Below the pieces are notes generated by a model. The model was not told the origin of the DNA and ran no database searches. It worked only from the letters and a program-made list of their open reading frames with translations. 6,962 nucleotides of DNA from Deltaproteobacteria bacterium (lineage in GTDB: Bacteria > Desulfobacterota_B > Binatia > UBA9968): NCBI GenBank assembly GCA_016193385.1, contig JACPSF010000219.1, forward strand, positions 1 to 6,962, written 5' to 3'. Every line of letters begins with the position of its first letter. The stretch's first letter is position 1. A program made the position numbers and the translations under genes. Below, piece by piece: positions 1-6,962 of this stretch.

Positions 1-178
1 ATTGGAAAAGGGGATCCTCAACCTCTAGTCTCTGCACGTTCCTGCCTACTGAATCCCCGTTCGGCAGGCTTCGCTCAGGATTCCCATACAGGAGAATGGA
101 TATTCCTGGTTAGGGTTCCCTGAATTCACCCAATTTTTCAATCTGCCTTACGGCAGAAAGCTGCGACTAAAAAAGGTC
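1..178 (-). ncRNA. Group I self-splicing intron (tRNA-type, IC3-like), 5' part only
   Basis: Read on the minus strand from 178 down to 1, this interrupts the tRNA anticodon loop and has the 5' two thirds of a group I ribozyme core. P1 pairs the exon end with an internal guide at 166-160 and places the hallmark U·G pair (U179·G164) at the splice site. P2 is a 6-bp stem (157-152 with 147-142) capped by a GUAA (GNRA) tetraloop. The P element AATTCAGGG (126-118) pairs with the Q element AATCCTGAGC (82-73) to form P4. P5 (115-113 with 85-83) is extended by a 5-bp stem (108-104 with 93-89), and a P6 extension pairs 68-63 with 46-41. The R element GTGCAGAGACTAGA (37-24) matches the group I consensus. 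The S element (its P7 partner), the terminal G and the 3' exon lie beyond the left edge. P/Q/R are close to those I recall from cyanobacterial and plastid tRNA-Leu introns. No endonuclease ORF is visible in this part. The intron call is strong; whether it splices cannot be judged from a partial copy. Confidence 0.88.
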
Positions 179-213
179 ACAGCCACCTGCTCTACCGGCT
201 GAGCTACCGGGGA
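179..213 (-). tRNA. tRNA-Asn(GTT), 5' exon (positions 1-35), split by a group I intron
   Basis: Read 213 to 179, these 35 bases are exactly tRNA positions 1-35: acceptor strand TCCCCGG, T8 A9, D stem GCTC/GAGC closing the 8-base loop AGCCGGTA, A26, anticodon stem strand GGTGG, then C32 T33 G34 T35. The exon ends after G34-T35, so the third anticodon base must come from the 3' exon, which is outside the window. Bacterial tRNA-Asn typically starts TCC and has the loop CTGTTAA, and this exon matches it closely, so the mature anticodon is most likely GTT. His, Asp and Tyr also have GU-first anticodons, but their 5' ends do not fit (they start with G). Read straight through, the genomic anticodon would look like GTG, which is an artefact of the intron's first base. 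A standard tRNA scan would probably miss the gene or call it wrongly. No promoter upstream (214-300) matches well enough to mark. Confidence 0.85.
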
Positions 214-414
214 AGTAATATGAACAAATAACACAGGCCAAGCACAAAACCAAGTTGTTGAATAGTGTCCAGCGAAGGGATCTTACCGATGATTAAAAGG
301 GGACACGGGTTGAGTGACAGAAGTTCCTTTTGAGTCTCAGCAGCCGAGAACTCAAATGGCCCCCTGACGGCCCCCCACAGCCCGTGTTCAGGAGCGTCGT
401 GGGGCTTCTCATCA

Positions 415-428
415 GCGATCTCAATCGC
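415..428. promoter_or_regulatory. Possible antitoxin operator (inverted repeat)
   Basis: A perfect 5-bp inverted repeat, GCGAT-ctca-ATCGC, sits 26 bases before the antitoxin start. Ribbon-helix-helix antitoxins commonly repress their own operon by binding short palindromes of this kind. The repeat is short enough to arise by chance and no clear -10/-35 pair frames it, so this is a suggestion. The rest of the divergent gap (214-454) shows no gene I can support, only a 6-bp complementarity (CCCCAC at 373-378, GTGGGG at 399-404). Confidence 0.22.
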
Positions 429-454
429 GGCTGGAATCGGGCTCGGGCGGGCCA

Positions 455-682
455 ATGGCACTAGGATACCGGGCAAAACTGAGCGTGACGGTTGATCCTA
501 ATCTTTACCAGACGATCACCCGCCATGCGGAGAAGGCAGGAGTTTCGAAAAGCCGGATTGTCGAGGAAGCGATCCGGCTGTGGGAGAAAAACCGTATGGC
601 GGTTTTGGCCAAAGAAGGCTACCAGAAAATGGCCCGTGAAGACGTGCTCGACGCTGAAGCCTACCTGCCAGCAACGTCATAG
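455..682 (+). CDS. Ribbon-helix-helix antitoxin of a MazEF-type toxin-antitoxin pair
   Basis: This 75-residue protein has the two-part build of a small antitoxin. Residues about 7-45 read as a ribbon-helix-helix DNA-binding domain: a short beta strand (AKLSVTVDP), a first helix (LYQTITRHAEKAG), the turn VSKSR, and a second helix (IVEEAIRLWEKN). The remaining acidic tail (about 50-75, with QKMAREDVLDAEAYLP) resembles the toxin-binding tail of MazE-like partners. In known systems such proteins neutralise the toxin and repress the operon. The stop is 15 bases before the toxin start, and the toxin has its own GAGG ribosome site. The antitoxin start is preceded only by a weak purine-rich stretch (GGGCGGG), so the start is less certain. 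The gene is intact although its partner is frameshifted, which is harmless for the host: a lone antitoxin is tolerated. Confidence 0.82.
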   Translation: MALGYRAKLSVTVDPNLYQTITRHAEKAGVSKSRIVEEAIRLWEKNRMAVLAKEGYQKMAREDVLDAEAYLPATS

Positions 683-697
683 ATATCCGAGGACTAG

Positions 698-1094
698 ATG
701 GACCGCGTTCCGGAGATTAGGCGAGGTGATGTCGTCCTTGTGCCGTTTCCCTATGTCACGGATTTCAAAAAAGGCTAAAACCCGACCGGCCCTGGTCGTT
801 CAAAACGACACGGGAAATCGCTTTGGTAGCACGGTGATCGTCGCCCTCATTTCCTTTTCAGTACCAGAGAAGAGGTATCCAATGCACTACCCGATCCCTC
901 ACCCATCCGCCGTGGCCAAGGCTGCGGGGTTGCAAGAGACCTCGGTCGTCAAAATGGAGACACTGATAACTCTTCCCAGGCGTGCGATCCTCAGAAAACT
1001 CGGCACCTTGCCCCGCGAGGCTATACTGGAGGCAGATTCCGCCCTGGCCTTCAGTTTAGACCTCCCACTCGCCGCGCCGGCAGGGAGGTATTAA
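698..1094 (+). pseudogene. mazF: MazF/PemK-family endoribonuclease toxin, frameshifted
   Basis: The frame from ATG 698 encodes the usual MazF beginning (RRGDVVLVPFP, residues 8-18), then stops at TAA 776-778 after 26 codons. Family similarity resumes at once in the +1 frame with KAKTRPALVVQND and VIVALIS and runs to TAA 1092-1094. The break falls in an A6 run (767-772). With five A's the join is seamless (DFKKAKTRPALVV), giving a 131-residue protein of normal MazF length. MazF toxins cut mRNA at short motifs; the RGD-like N-terminal strand and the Arg of RPALVV (reconstructed residue 29) belong to the family's active region, and both are present. A GAGG ribosome site at 689-692 lies 5 bases before the ATG. 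The gene may be disabled, rescued by RNA polymerase slippage on the A run, or a base-calling error. As written, only a 26-residue fragment is made from this start. Confidence 0.8.
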
Positions 1095-1474
1095 CCAAAA
1101 TACCAGCGTCAAGAGCCAAGAGCGGAATTGACCCCTTTGTCGACCCCTTTGTCCTTTGTTCGACCCGCGCCCCTGGAGTTTTCCAGGCGACGCAACAGAC
1201 GCCACTGTCGGGTGACCTGATCATTCCGGGCTATAACGCCCTCCCTTTGGTCAAGTCTTAAGCCTCAGAGGGCAGGCTAAGCAGGAAAGCCCTTTCTTTG
1301 ATCCGGGACCGAATGATAGTTAAACGCGATCCTGGATTCAATGATCCCTCCAAGCTGCCACACTGCGCCGGTCGTGTTGCAAAGCGAGCCGTATCTTTAA
1401 ACCTAGGTAGGGTTCTGATAATCTCCTGTGCAGGCGTGCTTCCCCACTACGCGACCAGACCCAGGTCAACCGCG
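1095..1474. other. Intergenic stretch, no gene recognised
   Basis: The 380 bases between the toxin gene and the peptidase start hold no gene I can support. The peptidase frame is open upstream of 1475 back to 1298, but those 59 codons (rich in Arg, Pro and Cys) precede a clear signal peptide and look non-coding. Contents: a 12-bp tandem repeat at 1130-1153, and a weak hairpin at 1267-1273/1289-1295 (AGAGGGC with GCCCTTT, 15-base loop, one G·U pair) followed by CTTTG, which is a poor terminator at best. A GATAAT near 1415 could be a -10 box for the peptidase, but I see no convincing -35. Confidence 0.5.
1130..1153. repeat. 12-bp perfect tandem direct repeat (GACCCCTTTGTC x2)
   Basis: GACCCCTTTGTC occurs twice with no gap (1130-1141 and 1142-1153), followed by the related stretch CTTTGTTCGACCC. 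On the minus strand it reads GACAAAGGGGTC, a style of sequence I associate with short palindromic repeats near REP-associated transposases. No transposase is present here, so any link to a mobile element is a guess; the repeat itself is certain. Confidence 0.7.
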
Positions 1475-3073
1475 ATGCAAACCTGTAAGAGAAAACAGGC
1501 GGTGGTTACCAAGCTTGCCGCTTCAGCTCTAAGCCTGTTCGTTCTTTTTCTCCTCACGGGGTGGACGCCTAAAGTCCCATCGTCCGCCGATTCATCGGCG
1601 GACGAGCTCGCCGGGCACGTGCGCTTTCTCTCCTCGGATGAACTCATGGGACGCGGGGTCGACACTGTGGGAATCCAGCAGGCACGAGATTATGTCGGAG
1701 AGCAATTCAAAAAATATGGCCTGCTCCCGGGGGGCGACGGCGCAACCTACTTTCAGGGCGTAGAGGTCGTGACCGGCGCCAAGCTCAAGGATGGGAGCGA
1801 GCTAACGATCGCAGACCTGCGTCTGATCCCGAGCCGCCAGTGGGCCCCTCTGGGCTTTTCGGCATCCGGCAAAGCCGATGGAGAGCTTGTTTTCGTTGGC
1901 TATGGAATCACCGCGGAAGATTACGGCTACGACGACTATGCCGGCGTAGACGTGAAGGGGAAAATCGCTGTCGTTTTACGCTATGAGCCGCCGCCGAAAA
2001 ACGACCGCAGCCCGTTCCGAAAGCATCCCCAGTACTCACGGCATGCCGCTTTGCGGACCAAAGCCGACACCGCTCGGCAGCACGGCGCTGTCGGGATGAT
2101 TCTCGTCGATCACCATTCGGCTGAAGAGGGCGAAAAACAGCTGATACCGCTCAGAAGAACTCTGGATAGAAGCGACCTCGGGTTGGTGGTCGCGCAGGTT
2201 ACCCGCGAGGTCCTGGATAAGGCACTGGCAGAAAAGGGCATCTCGCTCGGCGCGCTCAAGGAAAAAATCGATCGGGAGGAGCGACCCGCTTCCGTTCCTC
2301 TCGGTCTCAGAGCTTCCCTTGAAGTTCAGATAGAAAAGGTGACCGGGAAGGGCGACAACGTCATCGGCATCCTCCCCGGCGCCTCTCCGCAGTCGCAGGG
2401 CGAGCACATCGTCATCGGCGCCCACTACGATCACCTAGGACTTGGATACTACGGCACGCGGGATGCAAGCACCGAGGGGCGAATCCACCATGGCGCCGAT
2501 GACAACGCTTCGGGGACTGCCCTTCTACTGCTCCTGGCCCAGGAGTTAAGCCGGCGGCCCGATCCTCTGCGTACCGCGGTCGTTTTCGTGGCCTTCACCG
2601 GGGAGGAGTTAGGACTCTACGGCTCTCGACACTACGTCACTCGCCCGGCTCTCTCCCTGCGGTCGGCCAAAGCCATGATCAACCTGGACATGGTCGGACG
2701 AATGAAAAACAACCGCCTGATCGTCGCAGGGGTAGATACCGCCAAAGAGTTGCGCGGCATATTAAGTCAGGCCGGGCTCGGGCTTAACATGGAAATGACG
2801 CCGGGAGTAGCCCGAAGCGATCACGTCTCCTTCTACGACAGCAATATCCCCGTCCTTCACTTCTACACGGGAGTTCACGAGGATTACCATCGCCCTACGG
2901 ACACGTGGGAAAAGCTTAATGTCGAAGGAATGGAAAAAATCAACCGTGTGGTCCTGATGACCGTGGAAAAGATCGCAAACGACAGAGAACCCCTCACTTT
3001 TGTCCGTTTGCCCACCCGGTCCACAAGAGCCAGGCCTAGCCCCACTTCTCTCCCCCAGGCTCCAAATCCTTGA
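1475..3073 (+). CDS. Secreted M28-family zinc aminopeptidase with PA-type insert
   Basis: A 532-residue exported metallopeptidase predicted to remove N-terminal residues from peptides outside the cytoplasm. I chose ATG 1475 because it gives a standard signal peptide: basic start (MQTCKRKQ), hydrophobic core (about 14-28), then a small-residue region. It has AGGT 9-12 bases upstream. After a helix (HVRFLSSDELMGRG, about 48-61), residues about 135-235 resemble a protease-associated (PA) domain. The catalytic domain has the full M28 set: H317 and D319 in AHYDHL, D343 in GADDNASG, E377 and E378 in TGEELG, D405 in NLDMVGR and H472 in DYHRPTDT. By family analogy H317, D343, E378, D405 and H472 bind two zinc ions, and E377 is the general base. 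The exact substrate cannot be read from sequence. It appears to be a single-gene unit: 167 bases follow before the next start. The last 25 residues or so are Pro/Arg/Ser-rich and look like a disordered tail. Confidence 0.9.
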   Translation: MQTCKRKQAVVTKLAASALSLFVLFLLTGWTPKVPSSADSSADELAGHVRFLSSDELMGRGVDTVGIQQARDYVGEQFKKYGLLPGGDGATYFQGVEVVTGAKLKDGSELTIADLRLIPSRQWAPLGFSASGKADGELVFVGYGITAEDYGYDDYAGVDVKGKIAVVLRYEPPPKNDRSPFRKHPQYSRHAALRTKADTARQHGAVGMILVDHHSAEEGEKQLIPLRRTLDRSDLGLVVAQVTREVLDKALAEKGISLGALKEKIDREERPASVPLGLRASLEVQIEKVTGKGDNVIGILPGASPQSQGEHIVIGAHYDHLGLGYYGTRDASTEGRIHHGADDNASGTALLLLLAQELSRRPDPLRTAVVFVAFTGEELGLYGSRHYVTRPALSLRSAKAMINLDMVGRMKNNRLIVAGVDTAKELRGILSQAGLGLNMEMTPGVARSDHVSFYDSNIPVLHFYTGVHEDYHRPTDTWEKLNVEGMEKINRVVLMTVEKIANDREPLTFVRLPTRSTRARPSPTSLPQAPNP

Positions 3074-3223
3074 TAATCACCCTGCCTCGCTGGATCACGT
3101 ATTCAAAAGTCCACGCAATCTTCTCAATACCAAAAAAATCACAGCCTAACTAAGAATAAGAAATGGATATGGCAGTCAGCCACCGCCTTATGGTATGTAT
3201 AGGGCATTCAACCGGCGCGGTAC

Positions 3224-3231
3224 AAGGAGGT
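3224..3231 (+). promoter_or_regulatory. Strong ribosome binding site of the GST gene (AAGGAGGT)
   Basis: A full-consensus Shine-Dalgarno sequence ends 9 bases before ATG 3241. It decides the start: the same frame is open from ATG 3163, but those 26 extra codons lie over this site and do not fit the family. It implies high translation of the operon's first gene. Confidence 0.85.
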
Positions 3232-3240
3232 CTCAGACGT

Positions 3241-3849
3241 ATGATCAAGCTTTACCATTCCCCGCTATCTACCAACTCCCGCAAGGTGCGCATCGTCCTG
3301 ATCGAGAAGGGATTGGATTTCGAGAGGGTCCAGATCGACCTATCGAAAAAAGAGCAGAAGAACCCAGAATATCTGAAGATTCACCCGTTCGGTCAGGTCC
3401 CTGCCCTCGATGACGACGGCTTTATTGTTTATGACTCGACTATCATCAACGAGTACCTGGAAGACGAGTACCCCTACCCTCCCCTGCTTCCTGAGGACTC
3501 TGAGGGGCGCGCCCGGGCGCGAATGATGGAGGATTTTCGCGACAATTATTTCACTCCCCCTTTCATCGAGATCATCCACGAGTTTCGTTACAAAGCCGAA
3601 GGGCAGCGGGATGCAAAAGTCATCGACCACGCGAAGGCAGAGATCGTCAAGTGCTTTGATCGAATCGAAAAGGAACTGGAAGGAAAAGAGTACCTGGCAG
3701 GAACCTTCAGCCTTGCCGATATCGCCTTCATGACCAACCTCGACCTGCTGGAGCGCTTCCAGATCCCGGTCGATCCAAAATATAAAAACCTTCGGGCCTG
3801 GATCGAGCGGCTCAAGGCGAGGCCCAGTTACGCCGCATCCACCACCTGA
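3241..3849 (+). CDS. Glutathione S-transferase family protein
   Basis: A 202-residue cytosolic protein of normal GST length. Residues 1-75 form the thioredoxin-like glutathione-binding domain. It starts IKLYHSPLSTNSRKVRIVL, where Ser7, Ser10 or Ser13 could be the thiol-activating residue. It carries the conserved GQVPAL with cis-Pro54 and the glutathione-contacting pair D65-S66 in YDSTIINEYL. The rest is the all-helical C-terminal domain, with the N-capping motif AGTFSLADIAF near 160-170. The serine-type N-terminus points to the theta/zeta/beta-like bacterial group. Substrate is unknown; such enzymes conjugate or reduce electrophiles and peroxides or isomerise pathway intermediates. It is first in a tight operon: its stop is 5 bases before the pcs ATG, so the two are co-transcribed and probably translationally coupled. 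A link to lipid metabolism is suggested only by position. Confidence 0.9.
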   Translation: MIKLYHSPLSTNSRKVRIVLIEKGLDFERVQIDLSKKEQKNPEYLKIHPFGQVPALDDDGFIVYDSTIINEYLEDEYPYPPLLPEDSEGRARARMMEDFRDNYFTPPFIEIIHEFRYKAEGQRDAKVIDHAKAEIVKCFDRIEKELEGKEYLAGTFSLADIAFMTNLDLLERFQIPVDPKYKNLRAWIERLKARPSYAASTT

Positions 3850-3854
3850 GGCGC

Positions 3855-4403
3855 ATGTCTTCCAGCGCGGTTCTTCCCTGGCTGGTCCATCTCTACACCG
3901 CCTGCGGCGCCGTCATCGGTTTCGTCGCCCTCATCCTCGTCGAACAGGCGAAATTTCAGAGCGCGTTCTGGCTCATGTCCCTCGCAGTCATAATTGACGC
4001 GACCGACGGCACCCTGGCGCGCATGGCCCGCGTGAAAGAGCTCATCCCATGGTTTGACGGAGACCGCCTGGAAGACATCATCGACTATCTCAATTACGTC
4101 CTCGTCCCCTGCCTCTTTCTGTTCCGCGCCGATCTGCTCCCCGAGAAAGCTGCCCTCGGGTTTGCGTCCTTGCCGCTTTTGGCGAGCGCCTACGGTTTCT
4201 GCCAGAGACAAGCCAAGACCTCAGACCATTTTTTTCTCGGATTCCCTTCCTATTGGAATATCGTTGCCTTCTACCTCTACGTACTGCTCACGCCTCGGTG
4301 GCTAAACGGCCTCCTCATTATCGTTCTTTCCGCGCTCGTCTTCGTCCCGATCAAGTACCTTTATCCGAGCCGGACACCGATTCTCCGCGGTCTTACGGTC
4401 TGA
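3855..4403 (+). CDS. pcs: Phosphatidylcholine synthase, cut short by an in-frame TGA
   Basis: An inner-membrane CDP-alcohol phosphatidyltransferase that in its family joins CDP-diacylglycerol and choline to make phosphatidylcholine plus CMP. Pcs-specific blocks are clear: LVHLYTACGAVIGF near the N-terminus, AKTSDHFFLGFPSYWN (120-135) and VFVPIKYLYPSRTPILRGL (162-180). The catalytic signature runs D48-x2-D51-G52-x2-A55-R56-x12-G69-x3-E73-D74-x2-D77. The Pcs consensus has Asp-Asn where E73-D74 stand, so a metal-binding Asp is replaced by Glu. The frame stops at TGA 4401-4403 after 182 residues, whereas family members have about 240. The missing C-terminus is still encoded in the same frame up to 4544. 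The ribosome site GAGG (3848-3851) overlaps the GST stop, only 3 bases from the ATG. Family assignment is firm; whether the truncated protein works is open, since it would lack the last two or so membrane helices. Confidence 0.87.
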   Translation: MSSSAVLPWLVHLYTACGAVIGFVALILVEQAKFQSAFWLMSLAVIIDATDGTLARMARVKELIPWFDGDRLEDIIDYLNYVLVPCLFLFRADLLPEKAALGFASLPLLASAYGFCQRQAKTSDHFFLGFPSYWNIVAFYLYVLLTPRWLNGLLIIVLSALVFVPIKYLYPSRTPILRGLTV

Positions 4404-4544
4404 ATCGTCTGGGGCATCCTTGTTCTGCTGATCATCTACCGACTTCCCCATCCCCCCGCGTCGTTCGTGTTAAGCTCGCTGCTCTTCCCGGCCTATTACC
4501 TATCCCTCACTTTCTGGCTTGCGGCCCGAGGACAGGACGGATGA
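4404..4544 (+). pseudogene. Continuation of pcs after the in-frame stop (C-terminal membrane helices)
   Basis: In the pcs frame, 46 sense codons follow the TGA. They read IVWGILVLLIIYRLP, then PPASFVLSSLLFPAYYLSLTF, then WLAARGQDG before TGA 4542-4544. This is two hydrophobic helices separated by a Pro-rich turn, which is how Pcs proteins end (compare the LVW... and ...PPWVVV... blocks I recall from rhizobial Pcs). With it the protein would be about 229 residues, close to family length. The final TGA overlaps the next gene's ATG as ATGA, so this segment was clearly the functional end of pcs until recently. Confidence 0.78.
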
Positions 4545-5785
4545 ACCCCGGGAACCGGCGCGAGCTGCCCCAACGCCTGCTAATTGCAACCGCGGTCCTC
4601 TTTTTCTTCCTGGGCGCACTATTCCTCAAACCCCACCCGGGTGCAGCCGGTGAGCCGGCATCTCCTAAATTTATCTTTATCTTCGTGGCTGACGGCGCGG
4701 GCACCACCCATCTGGAAATCACCAGGCTCTACAGCCAGCACGCACATCGGGAGGGGTTGATCATCACCGACAGGATCCTCGGCGGCGGATTTCTTGGTCT
4801 GATGACCACCCACTCCGCAGACTCTCTGATTACAGACTCAGCCGCGGCCGCGACCGCCCTGGCGAGCGGCTGCAAGACAAAAAATGGAGCAGTCGGCATC
4901 TGTGCCGACGGTCGCCCCGCCAAAACCGTTTTTGAGATCGGAAAAGAAAGAGGAATGCGCCTGGGTCTGGTCACCAATGCGGAAATTTATGACGCGACTC
5001 CGGCTGCCTTCGCGTCCCATGCGAAGAGCCGAAATCTCTTCAGCTCGATCATCGACCAGTACTTAAAGCTGGAACCCGACCTTTTGATGGGGGGAGGCAG
5101 GGAATATTTTGTGCCGCGGAGCCAGCCAGGCAGCCGGAGAAAAGACCCAAAGGATATGCTCTCCCTCTTTCGCAAGAGAGGCTTCAACTACATGACCAAC
5201 CGGGAAGAACTGATGGCCGCCCGAGGGCCCAAGCTTCTCGGCCTCTTCAGTCTCGGGCCCATGAGCTTCGAGAACGATCGCAACCCCAAAATCGAGCCTT
5301 CGCTCCATGACATGACCCACACTGCCTTGCGCGTCCTTCAGGAAAATCTTGCAAGGGGATTTATCATCCTGGTCGAAAACGAAAATATCGACAACGCAGG
5401 CCATGGTTCCAACCTCGCTGCTCTGGTCCGAGATTTTAAAGAGCTGGATAAAGCGGTGGGTCTTGCGTATGAGTTCTACCGGCAGCATCCCAGGGAAACC
5501 CTGATCCTGGTGACTTCGGACCACGAAACGGGCGGCTTGACCCTCGCCGGAAAAAGGAGAAAGCTTATTCCCGGCCTCCGACCTGACTCCTTGTCCGAGC
5601 TGATCGGTCCGGAGCGGGCTCGGAACATCCAGATCTCCTGGAGCACGTCAGGCCATACCGCTCAACCCGTCTTCGTAGGGGCGCTGGGGATCGGGGCGGA
5701 GCGGTTCCGCGGCTATCAGGACAATACCGATTTCGCGCGCCATCTCTTCGGTCTGCTGCGGGTTGAAATTAGGACTGCGCGATGA
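4541..5785 (+). CDS. Alkaline phosphatase, PhoA-like, exported
   Basis: A 414-residue phosphomonoesterase of the alkaline phosphatase superfamily, exported by an N-terminal signal or anchor (basic NRRELPQR, hydrophobic 13-29, then GAAGEPA). The start at 4541 gives this signal, overlaps the pcs frame end (ATGA) and has GAGGA 8 bases upstream. The two-zinc, one-magnesium site is complete: D51 in VADGAG, the nucleophile S100 in LITDSAAAATA after D99, D151 and T153 in DATPAAF, E279, D284 and H288 in VENENIDNAGH, D327-H328 in SDHETGG, and H372 in SGHTAQP. LLMGGGREY (181-189) is another family block. It is shorter than many relatives (about 450-500), mainly through compact loops. The usual role is freeing phosphate from organic phosphates in the periplasm; pcs next to it raises phosphocholine as a substrate. 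No Pho box is visible directly upstream, as expected for an internal operon gene. Confidence 0.9.
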   Translation: MNPGNRRELPQRLLIATAVLFFFLGALFLKPHPGAAGEPASPKFIFIFVADGAGTTHLEITRLYSQHAHREGLIITDRILGGGFLGLMTTHSADSLITDSAAAATALASGCKTKNGAVGICADGRPAKTVFEIGKERGMRLGLVTNAEIYDATPAAFASHAKSRNLFSSIIDQYLKLEPDLLMGGGREYFVPRSQPGSRRKDPKDMLSLFRKRGFNYMTNREELMAARGPKLLGLFSLGPMSFENDRNPKIEPSLHDMTHTALRVLQENLARGFIILVENENIDNAGHGSNLAALVRDFKELDKAVGLAYEFYRQHPRETLILVTSDHETGGLTLAGKRRKLIPGLRPDSLSELIGPERARNIQISWSTSGHTAQPVFVGALGIGAERFRGYQDNTDFARHLFGLLRVEIRTAR

Positions 5786-5788
5786 GGT

Positions 5789-6472
5789 CTACCGGCGCTT
5801 CAGTTGTCGCTGAGAAGACGCGACCGGAAGGACCCGCCCGTGCTCGAGCTCGATGACCCGGTCGGCCTGTTCACCGATGTGCGGATCGTGAGTCACCACC
5901 AGGAGGGTATGACCGGCGCGGTGAAGCTGATGAAAGATGTCCATCACCACCTCCTCGCTCCGCGCGTCCAGATTCCCCGTGGGCTCGTCGGCCAGAATGA
6001 TCTTCGGTTGGTTGATCAACGCCCGCGCAATACAGACACGCTGTTGCTCGCCGCCGGAGAGCTGGGAAGGAAGAAAATCTGTCCTTTCCTCGAGCTTGAC
6101 CTGGCGCAAGGCCGCTCTCGCCTCGTCCCGGTCTGCCATGCTGTGGAAATACTGGGCGAGCATGACATTCTCCAAGGCCGTCAGGTAGAGAACCAGATAG
6201 AACTGCTGGAAGATGAGTCCCACCTTCTCGCGTCGAAACCGGGCTCTCTCCTCTTCGGAAAGAGAGAGAAGACCGATGCCATCGACCGAGAGTAAACCTG
6301 AAGTGGGCTGATCGAGAGCCGCGATCATGTTCAGCAGCGTGCTTTTCCCCGATCCCGAGGCACCCATGACGGCAACCCATTCCCCCGGATAGATCTCCAG
6401 GCTCACCCGATCAAGAGCCTTAACCTTCCCGTTATAGTCCTTGGTCACGTCCCTAAGCACAATTAAAGGCAC
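5789..6472 (-). CDS. ABC transporter ATPase, LolD/MacB type
   Basis: A 227-residue nucleotide-binding subunit with all working motifs: Walker [10 protein letters not shown] (37-45), Q-loop at Q89-Q90, signature LSGGEQQR (138-145), Walker B IILADE (158-163), D-loop (GNLDA) and switch His195 in VTHD. The block [18 protein letters not shown] (88-105) and the E-P-T-G-N-L-D string are typical of the LolD/MacB/FtsE family, which powers FtsX-type permeases by mechanotransmission instead of classic import. Roles in the family include lipoprotein release to the outer membrane and efflux; the substrate cannot be told here. The start is GTG at 6472, supported by AAGGAG 8 bases upstream (6486-6481). It lies 64 bases after the permease stop, so the two form one operon. 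Its stop is 3 bases from the phosphatase stop on the other strand. Confidence 0.92.
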
Positions 6473-6480
6473 CTAAAAAT

Positions 6481-6486
6481 CTCCTT
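6481..6486 (-). promoter_or_regulatory. Ribosome binding site (AAGGAG) for the GTG start of the ABC ATPase
   Basis: AAGGAG on the minus strand, followed by 8 bases and then GTG at 6472. It selects the GTG as the start and shows that the ATPase is translated independently of the permease 64 bases upstream. Confidence 0.8.
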
Positions 6487-6536
6487 GGCCGCTCGGCTCC
6501 CAGTCGACCGATTGACTTGCCGCCAGATCTCAGTCT

Positions 6537-6962
6537 TTATTCTCCCTTCAGGACGGCCGCTGGAGCCGTGCATGCCACCTTCCGGACGACGGAGAGGCTC
6601 GAAAAGAGTGCCACTCCGAGTCCAACCGCGAGCCCCGCAGGAAGACTGATCAGCCTGGGAAATACAAACGAGCCGAACACGCTCAAACTGATGGCCTCGG
6701 CAAACAGGAGGCCAAGGGCAAAGCCCACCACTCCACCGGCAAGGCCTACGGCTAACGCTTCGCACGCAAAAATTAACGCGACCCTCCTCTCCCCAGCGCC
6801 CAGGGCACGCATTAAGGCAACCTCAACTTTTCTCTCCAGGGCTGCCGTCGTCATCGTAGCAAAGACGCCGAGACCAGACGCAAACAGAACGATGACGCTC
6901 ACCAACGTAAGAAAAACCCCTATGCGAAAGAGAAGCGCCTCCTCTGCCCGCGCCACCTGCCA
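6537..6962 (-). CDS. FtsX/LolC/MacB-type ABC permease, C-terminal part (gene cut by window edge)
   Basis: The frame is open to the right edge and ends at TAA 6539-6537, giving the last 141 residues of a permease. A GTG at 6956 is not the true start: the preceding codons are still coding-like (WQVARAEEALL), matching the QVA-E linker just before the FtsX domain. Visible are three membrane helices: about 13-34; about 63-87, after the cytoplasmic coupling segment ERKVEVALMRALGAGERR; and about 105-122. The protein ends in the family's common tail, here APAAVLKGE. The segment with ALMRALGA is the conserved stretch contacting the ATPase. Partner is the ATPase at 5789-6472. The N-terminal helix and periplasmic domain, which would separate LolC/E from MacB-like proteins, lie outside the window. 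Confidence 0.88.
   Translation of the reverse strand, partial: WQVARAEEALLFRIGVFLTLVSVIVLFASGLGVFATMTTAALERKVEVALMRALGAGERRVALIFACEALAVGLAGGVVGFALGLLFAEAISLSVFGSFVFPRLISLPAGLAVGLGVALFSSLSVVRKVACTAPAAVLKGE

Follow-up and report, generated by a model that had tools for sequence, protein, structure and literature searches.

A group I intron that very probably interrupts a tRNA-Asn gene within its anticodon, and its relatives across many bacterial phyla

The window, by which we mean the whole 6,962-nucleotide stretch analysed (contig JACPSF010000219.1, positions 1 to 6,962), carries at the left end of the contig, on the minus strand, the 5′ half of a tRNA gene followed by the 5′ part of a group I intron (213..1). 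This confirms the original prediction, whose 35-base tRNA 5′ exon, P1, P2 with a GNRA loop, P/Q pairing and R element were all found in place (Table 1). Soon after the R element the intron runs into the window end, so that the 3′ strand of P3, P8, S, P9, the terminal G, tRNA base 36 and the 3′ exon lie beyond it. The remainder of the window encodes an M28 peptidase, a GST, an alkaline phosphatase, an ABC transporter ATPase and an FtsX-like permease, and a frame at 3855-4400 gave no Pfam match. Homologues of the GST that carry organism names have 79-86% identity and are assigned to Deltaproteobacteria or Candidatus Binatia, while the best match among 148 genomes of the phylum of L118 reaches 50%. 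To us the frame at 698-1094 resembles a toxin of the MazF/PemK type, and it appears to be disrupted close to a run of A around 770.

Table 1. Elements of the interrupted tRNA gene at the left end of the window
Feature	Position	Strand	Evidence or remark
tRNA-Asn 5′ exon (host very probable), bases 1-35	213..179	-	acceptor 5′ strand, D arm, anticodon stem 5′ strand, C32 U33 G34 U35
Exon start AGAGCAGGTGGCTGT	within 213..179	-	also opens several uninterrupted tRNA-Asn genes
Group I intron, 5′ part, ends at window edge	178..1	-	RF00028 E 5.5e-9; alignment with 25 relatives
5′ splice site after U35	179/178	-	
P1 exon strand CUGU, U35 at splice site	182..179	-	invariant in 26/26, with CTGT in the search pattern
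Internal guide sequence GCAG, pairs with CUGU, U.G at splice site	164..161	-	26/26 aligned
P2 hairpin UCUGCC-GUAA-GGCAGA, GNRA loop	157..142	-	two-sided changes in 6/6 pairs across relatives
P3 5′ strand	133..127	-	alignment; 3′ strand past window end
P element AAUUCAGGGAA	126..116	-	pattern and alignment; contains P4 5′ strand UCAGGG 123..118
P4 3′ strand UCCUGA (Q side)	80..75	-	alignment
P6 and hairpin extension, CCUGCC 68..63 / GGCAGG 46..41	74..36	-	alignment
R element GUGCAGAGACUA	37..26	-	pattern; P7 5′ strand is GACUA 30..26
Start of J7/3 element (between P7 and P3), common in relatives, cut here	25..1	-	alignment

Of the Rfam covariance models, only the group I model RF00028 matched the window at E up to 1, at 188..1 on the minus strand (positions 1-151 of the 253 in the model, 3′-truncated; 44.3 bits, E 5.5e-9). 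The score falls below the family cut-off of 50 bits, which we attribute to the missing 40% of the model; four complete relatives score 82-104 bits. A composite pattern consisting of the tRNA 5′ half (including CTGT), the P element and the R element, and excluding the GCAG guide, matched the window once and none of 200 shuffled versions. ARAGORN run without introns reported no tRNA in the window, which is expected since the window has half a gene.

The same pattern identified relatives in at least 118 genome stretches and three viral contigs. These loci were submitted together with the window (n=122) to a parser that scored the anticodon stem, the T arm and the acceptor pairing and did not use the terminal intron base as a criterion. 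A complete tRNA was parsed in 113 of the 122 loci, and 110 of these read GTT with the intron at 35/36, as had been predicted for the window, the anticodon of which would by the same reading be GUU; one further parse gave tRNA-Asp (L097) and two gave tRNA-His (L120, L121). The intron measured 192-332 bases over the 113 complete parses and ended in G in all 110 Asn introns. Besides the window, eight loci could not be parsed (L002, L019, L042, L051, L066, L081, L099 and L107), and seven of the nine unparsed loci had fewer than 400 downstream bases. The terminal G was likewise found in 140 of 140 complete distinct introns, a set in which the loci from L122 onward had been selected by that rule.

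To describe the structure of the intron, we aligned the window with 25 relatives chosen from roughly 150. All 25 contain the 3′ strands of P3 and P7, the S element, P8 and P9, which for the window lie beyond its end. The model structure comprises the tRNA arms, P1-P4, P6, P7, the J7/3 hairpin, P8 and P9, and across the 26 sequences 95.6% of cells pair and 34 of the 70 pairs show two-sided changes. The tRNA arms (helices 1, 2, 3 and 14) account for 21 pairs and for some of the signal. Double-change cells numbered 254, against 72.5 +/- 8.7 in shuffled alignments, and none of 500 shuffles reached that value. Sliding the alignment by one to three columns lowered pairing to 38.5-44.0%; the structure was derived from a single row, L069, which gives it an advantage over the slid versions in this comparison. 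The information is unevenly distributed over the helices: P1, P4, P6 and P7 are nearly invariant and carry little covariation (P7 pairs without variation in 25 of the 25 relatives having both strands), and changes on both sides occur in P2, the P6 hairpin and parts of P3, P8 and P9. The proportion of paired cells was 78% in the J7/3 hairpin, 84% in P8 and 83% in P9. To subgroup IC3 of tRNA introns the set shows a resemblance only. Many of the introns have an element between P7 and P3; L028 is an Asn intron without this element, which the other aligned relatives have.

The guide could be located in 128 of 141 distinct Asn introns, reading GCAG in 121 and otherwise in seven, and a GNRA loop caps the hairpin beside it in 101 of the 128. 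No covariation was seen between tRNA base 31 and the base after the guide (G-C 92, C-C 25 and A-C 21 of 151), and P1 with the exon is therefore taken as four pairs, no position of the exon supporting P1 by covariation.

We also investigated whether the interrupted gene is the only tRNA-Asn gene of its genome. Of the 118 listed loci, 114 were traced to their genomes (L013, L019, L066 and L099 were left out), and removal of the Asp host L097 gave a tally of 113 genomes, which includes five unparsed loci (L002, L042, L051, L081 and L107). An uninterrupted tRNA-Asn was present in 11 of the 113 (4/40, 4/50 and 3/23 in the three batches, the batch of 40 having been searched with one mismatch allowed and CTGTTAA matches picked by eye), and none was found in 102. 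The genome of the Asp host (G384) has two uninterrupted tRNA-Asn matches. As a control we used the 148 genomes of the phylum of L118, 116 of which contain an uninterrupted tRNA-Asn. An Asn intron occurs in three of the control genomes (L138 in G472, L139 in G404 and L140 in G496), and none of the three has an uninterrupted gene, which leaves 116 of 145 genomes without an Asn intron in which the gene was found and 29 in which none was found; even where no Asn intron is present, one genome in five thus escapes the pattern for uninterrupted genes. The difference between 11/113 and 116/145 gave a Fisher p of 8e-32, for sets that differ in taxa and include many metagenome bins of completeness not given. 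We infer that the cell from which the window derives may itself need splicing.

Altogether, we consider it highly likely that the locus is a tRNA-Asn(GUU) gene into which a small group I intron is inserted between U35 and U36. The layout can be followed in the sequence as far as the R element in the window, and in the relatives it is complete, with covariation of several helices. The likely mechanism is the ordinary one, self-splicing initiated by guanosine and guided by GCAG-CUGU pairing. In the folded transcript, intron GCAG would pair with CUGU in the anticodon loop to form P1. A guanosine sitting in P7 would attack after U35, and the freed 3′ OH of U35 would then attack after the terminal G of the intron, joining the two halves to give the anticodon GUU. 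For the window copy we infer both this reaction and the 3′ half, the exon of which would be expected to begin UAACCACC. Protein might be required for splicing in the cell; the small size of the intron and a core resembling those of tRNA introns regarded as self-splicing argue by analogy against such a requirement, which we consider unlikely, although some group I introns are aided by proteins such as tyrosyl-tRNA synthetase, as described in a review (PMC3984707).

The host of the window intron is very probably a tRNA-Asn gene, and a competing assignment is tRNA-Thr(UGU), with the intron two bases earlier at 33/34. With introns allowed, ARAGORN called 60 Asn (gtt), 32 Thr (tgt) and 11 Asp (gtc) in the 118-locus set, the others being scattered, so that the Thr reading was the preferred one in 32 calls. 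Under the rule that a U precedes the intron and a G ends it (the U...G rule), 58 intron calls among 227 loci (some fetched twice) fit either Asn 35/36 or Thr 33/34, but another 59 permit Asn 35/36 alone. In addition, the Asn reading gives the usual U.G pair in P1, whereas the Thr reading would set U33 opposite A; tRNA-Asn would then be absent from 102 of the 113 genomes; and two genomes (G071 and G078) contain uninterrupted tRNA-Asn genes that show no difference from the L074 and L081 exons over the stretch searched. A threonine host is highly improbable in the light of these observations. The same CUGU half loop could belong to another GUN tRNA (Asp, Tyr or His), and L097 does have a comparable intron in tRNA-Asp(GUC), but base 1 is U in the window as in 110 of 110 Asn parses and G in the Asp parse, and the five introns nearest to the window on the intron tree are all in tRNA-Asn, which makes such a host extremely improbable. 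It would also be conceivable that the window copy is a dead fragment, either the 5′ half of a tRNA whose intron is decaying at the contig end or an integration scar, as the window is without the 3′ half and its sequence stops at base 1. We regard this as very unlikely, because the core elements are intact up to the cut and the sequence stays in register to its end with relatives whose introns go on, by 74-103 further bases in the 25 aligned ones.

The intron tree, built by a quick method from 145 introns and with 27 of its 142 inner branches starred, places the window with L077, L069 and L083 (support 88, unstarred); the best identity of the window intron is 75%, with L013. Introns are clustered by host phylum, though not strictly: host labels required 51 changes for 41 phylum labels, where the minimum is 40, the shuffled mean was 70.3 and none of 200 shuffles was as low, the count being taken from labelled rows, as 62 rows of the tree are without a phylum label. 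Three introns with anticodon CAT (L144, L146 and L147) are placed among the Asn introns with support under 95, and five Phe introns, forming a starred group, stand beside the Asn intron L011 with support 94. Asn introns as one clade were marginally rejected (AU p 0.042; 132 rows against nine, rows of four other hosts omitted), which suggests, on this quick tree, transfer between tRNAs. The patchy occurrence within phyla, the partial clustering by host and the related Ile and Phe introns suggest a mixture of descent, loss and transfer. As for the Phe introns, L159, L165, L169, L174 and L222 are tRNA-Phe(GAA) group I introns in the phylum of L006 (Patescibacteria) that can be read at 33/34, with L159 and L222 permitting other readings. 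Locus L155 is readable as an anticodon split at 34/35, and the Phe reading at 33/34 fits the U...G rule too.

Three of the relatives reside on viral contigs. L119 carries a tRNA-Asn intron at 35/36 and lies among Burkholderiaceae introns (support 99, starred). L120 and L121 share one intron sequence, and the His reading that the parser gave for them was discarded in favour of Asn at 36/37 once the U...G rule was applied. A 2014 review stated that all phage introns observed to date were in protein-coding genes (PMC3984707). A search of phage and plasmid DNA gave no match to stretch 1-225 of the window. The intron stretch of L119 matched 51 phage records, and in the 15 of them that were listed the match was confined to the tRNA exon region and covered 19-20% of the query. 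An endonuclease gene would find little room in the complete introns, which measure 192-332 bases.

To estimate how widespread the introns are, we examined the taxonomic labels of the 118 listed loci, which comprise 71 NCBI phylum names or record titles, many of them sublineages of Patescibacteria; the largest is Pseudomonadota with 11 loci. Counting the genome of the central locus among the positives in each case, the pattern was found in 4 of 95 genomes of the phylum of L026 (Rokuibacteriota label), 5 of 198 of the phylum of L004 (Nitrospira label), 2 of 148 of the phylum of L118 (Binatia label) and 7 of 119 of the class of L057 (Aminicenantes label). The pattern undercounts, as RF00028 gave a third Asn case (L138) among the 148 genomes. 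With RF00028 itself, which counts all hosts at E up to 0.001 (number over the cut-off in parentheses), we obtained 6 (5) of 148 genomes in the phylum of L118, 13 (4) of 74 in the family of L005 (Burkholderiaceae label) and 142 (107) of 286 in the phylum of L006 (Patescibacteria label). ARAGORN found a tRNA-Asn with an intron in 7 of the 14 RF00028 loci from the family of L005. In the phylum of L118, two further group I introns, L141 and L142, score over the cut-off, but ARAGORN called no tRNA with an intron at either locus. One genome (G228) has two different pattern matches on two contigs, L126 and L131, and for L126 ARAGORN reported no intron-containing tRNA.

Group I introns in bacterial tRNA genes form a known class. 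The tRNA-Ile(CAU) introns of the Azoarcus and Burkholderiales type belong to subgroup IC3; the introns described here are like them in small size, anticodon-loop site and core, but differ in the host, and the Ile site is 36/37 by the U...G rule. The tRNA-Leu(UAA) group I intron of cyanobacteria and plastids also splits the anticodon, and self-splices; it differs in host and site (34/35), and anticodon splitting by a group I intron is in itself not new. In a review, the tRNA-Leu(UAA) intron is cyanobacterial and plastid and most bacterial tRNA group I introns lie at 37/38, from which the sites read here differ (PMC4033280). The rRNA insertion sequences of CPR bacteria share some host lineages with our set and include many group I introns, but their hosts are rRNA genes and they often carry LAGLIDADG genes; the word "tRNA" has 0 occurrences in the text of that study (PMC11270868). 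Introns of 22-49 nucleotides have been claimed in other cyanobacterial tRNAs (PMC5733544), a length that we judge too short for a group I core. A study of circularised genomes mentions group I introns in some tRNAs and cites a private communication according to which tRNAs are an especially frequent target of invasion (PMC8172020), which implies that the general phenomenon is already familiar to specialists.

The original prediction named Leu(UAA), Ile(CAU), Arg(CCU) and initiator Met as the classical bacterial tRNA hosts of group I introns and did not count tRNA-Asn(GTT) among the described ones. Our search of the open PMC literature gave no bacterial tRNA-Asn group I intron among the papers listed, which is weak evidence of absence. 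None is mentioned in the portions covered of PMC3984707, PMC8450103, PMC5733544, PMC11835236, PMC6125680 and PMC4033280, nor in those of PMC8172020, PMC8155191, PMC4853749 and PMC11270868. The host, the site and the breadth thus appear new as far as searched. It is tempting to speculate that among bacterial tRNAs outside the cyanobacteria, group I introns have their most widespread home in the tRNA-Asn anticodon loop, viruses included, that many uncultured lineages depend on one ribozyme for all decoding of Asn, that splicing, as it uses guanosine or GTP, could gate the supply of Asn-tRNA in response to nutrients, and that the introns moved from there to tRNA-Ile, tRNA-Phe and tRNA-Asp; we consider this picture quite unlikely to hold as a whole, and any ranking of hosts is biased by a search pattern built for tRNA-Asn. 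What the finding adds is a host tRNA and a site over many phyla, and with them a large natural set in which to study the spread of small introns and the possible dependence of an essential tRNA on a ribozyme.
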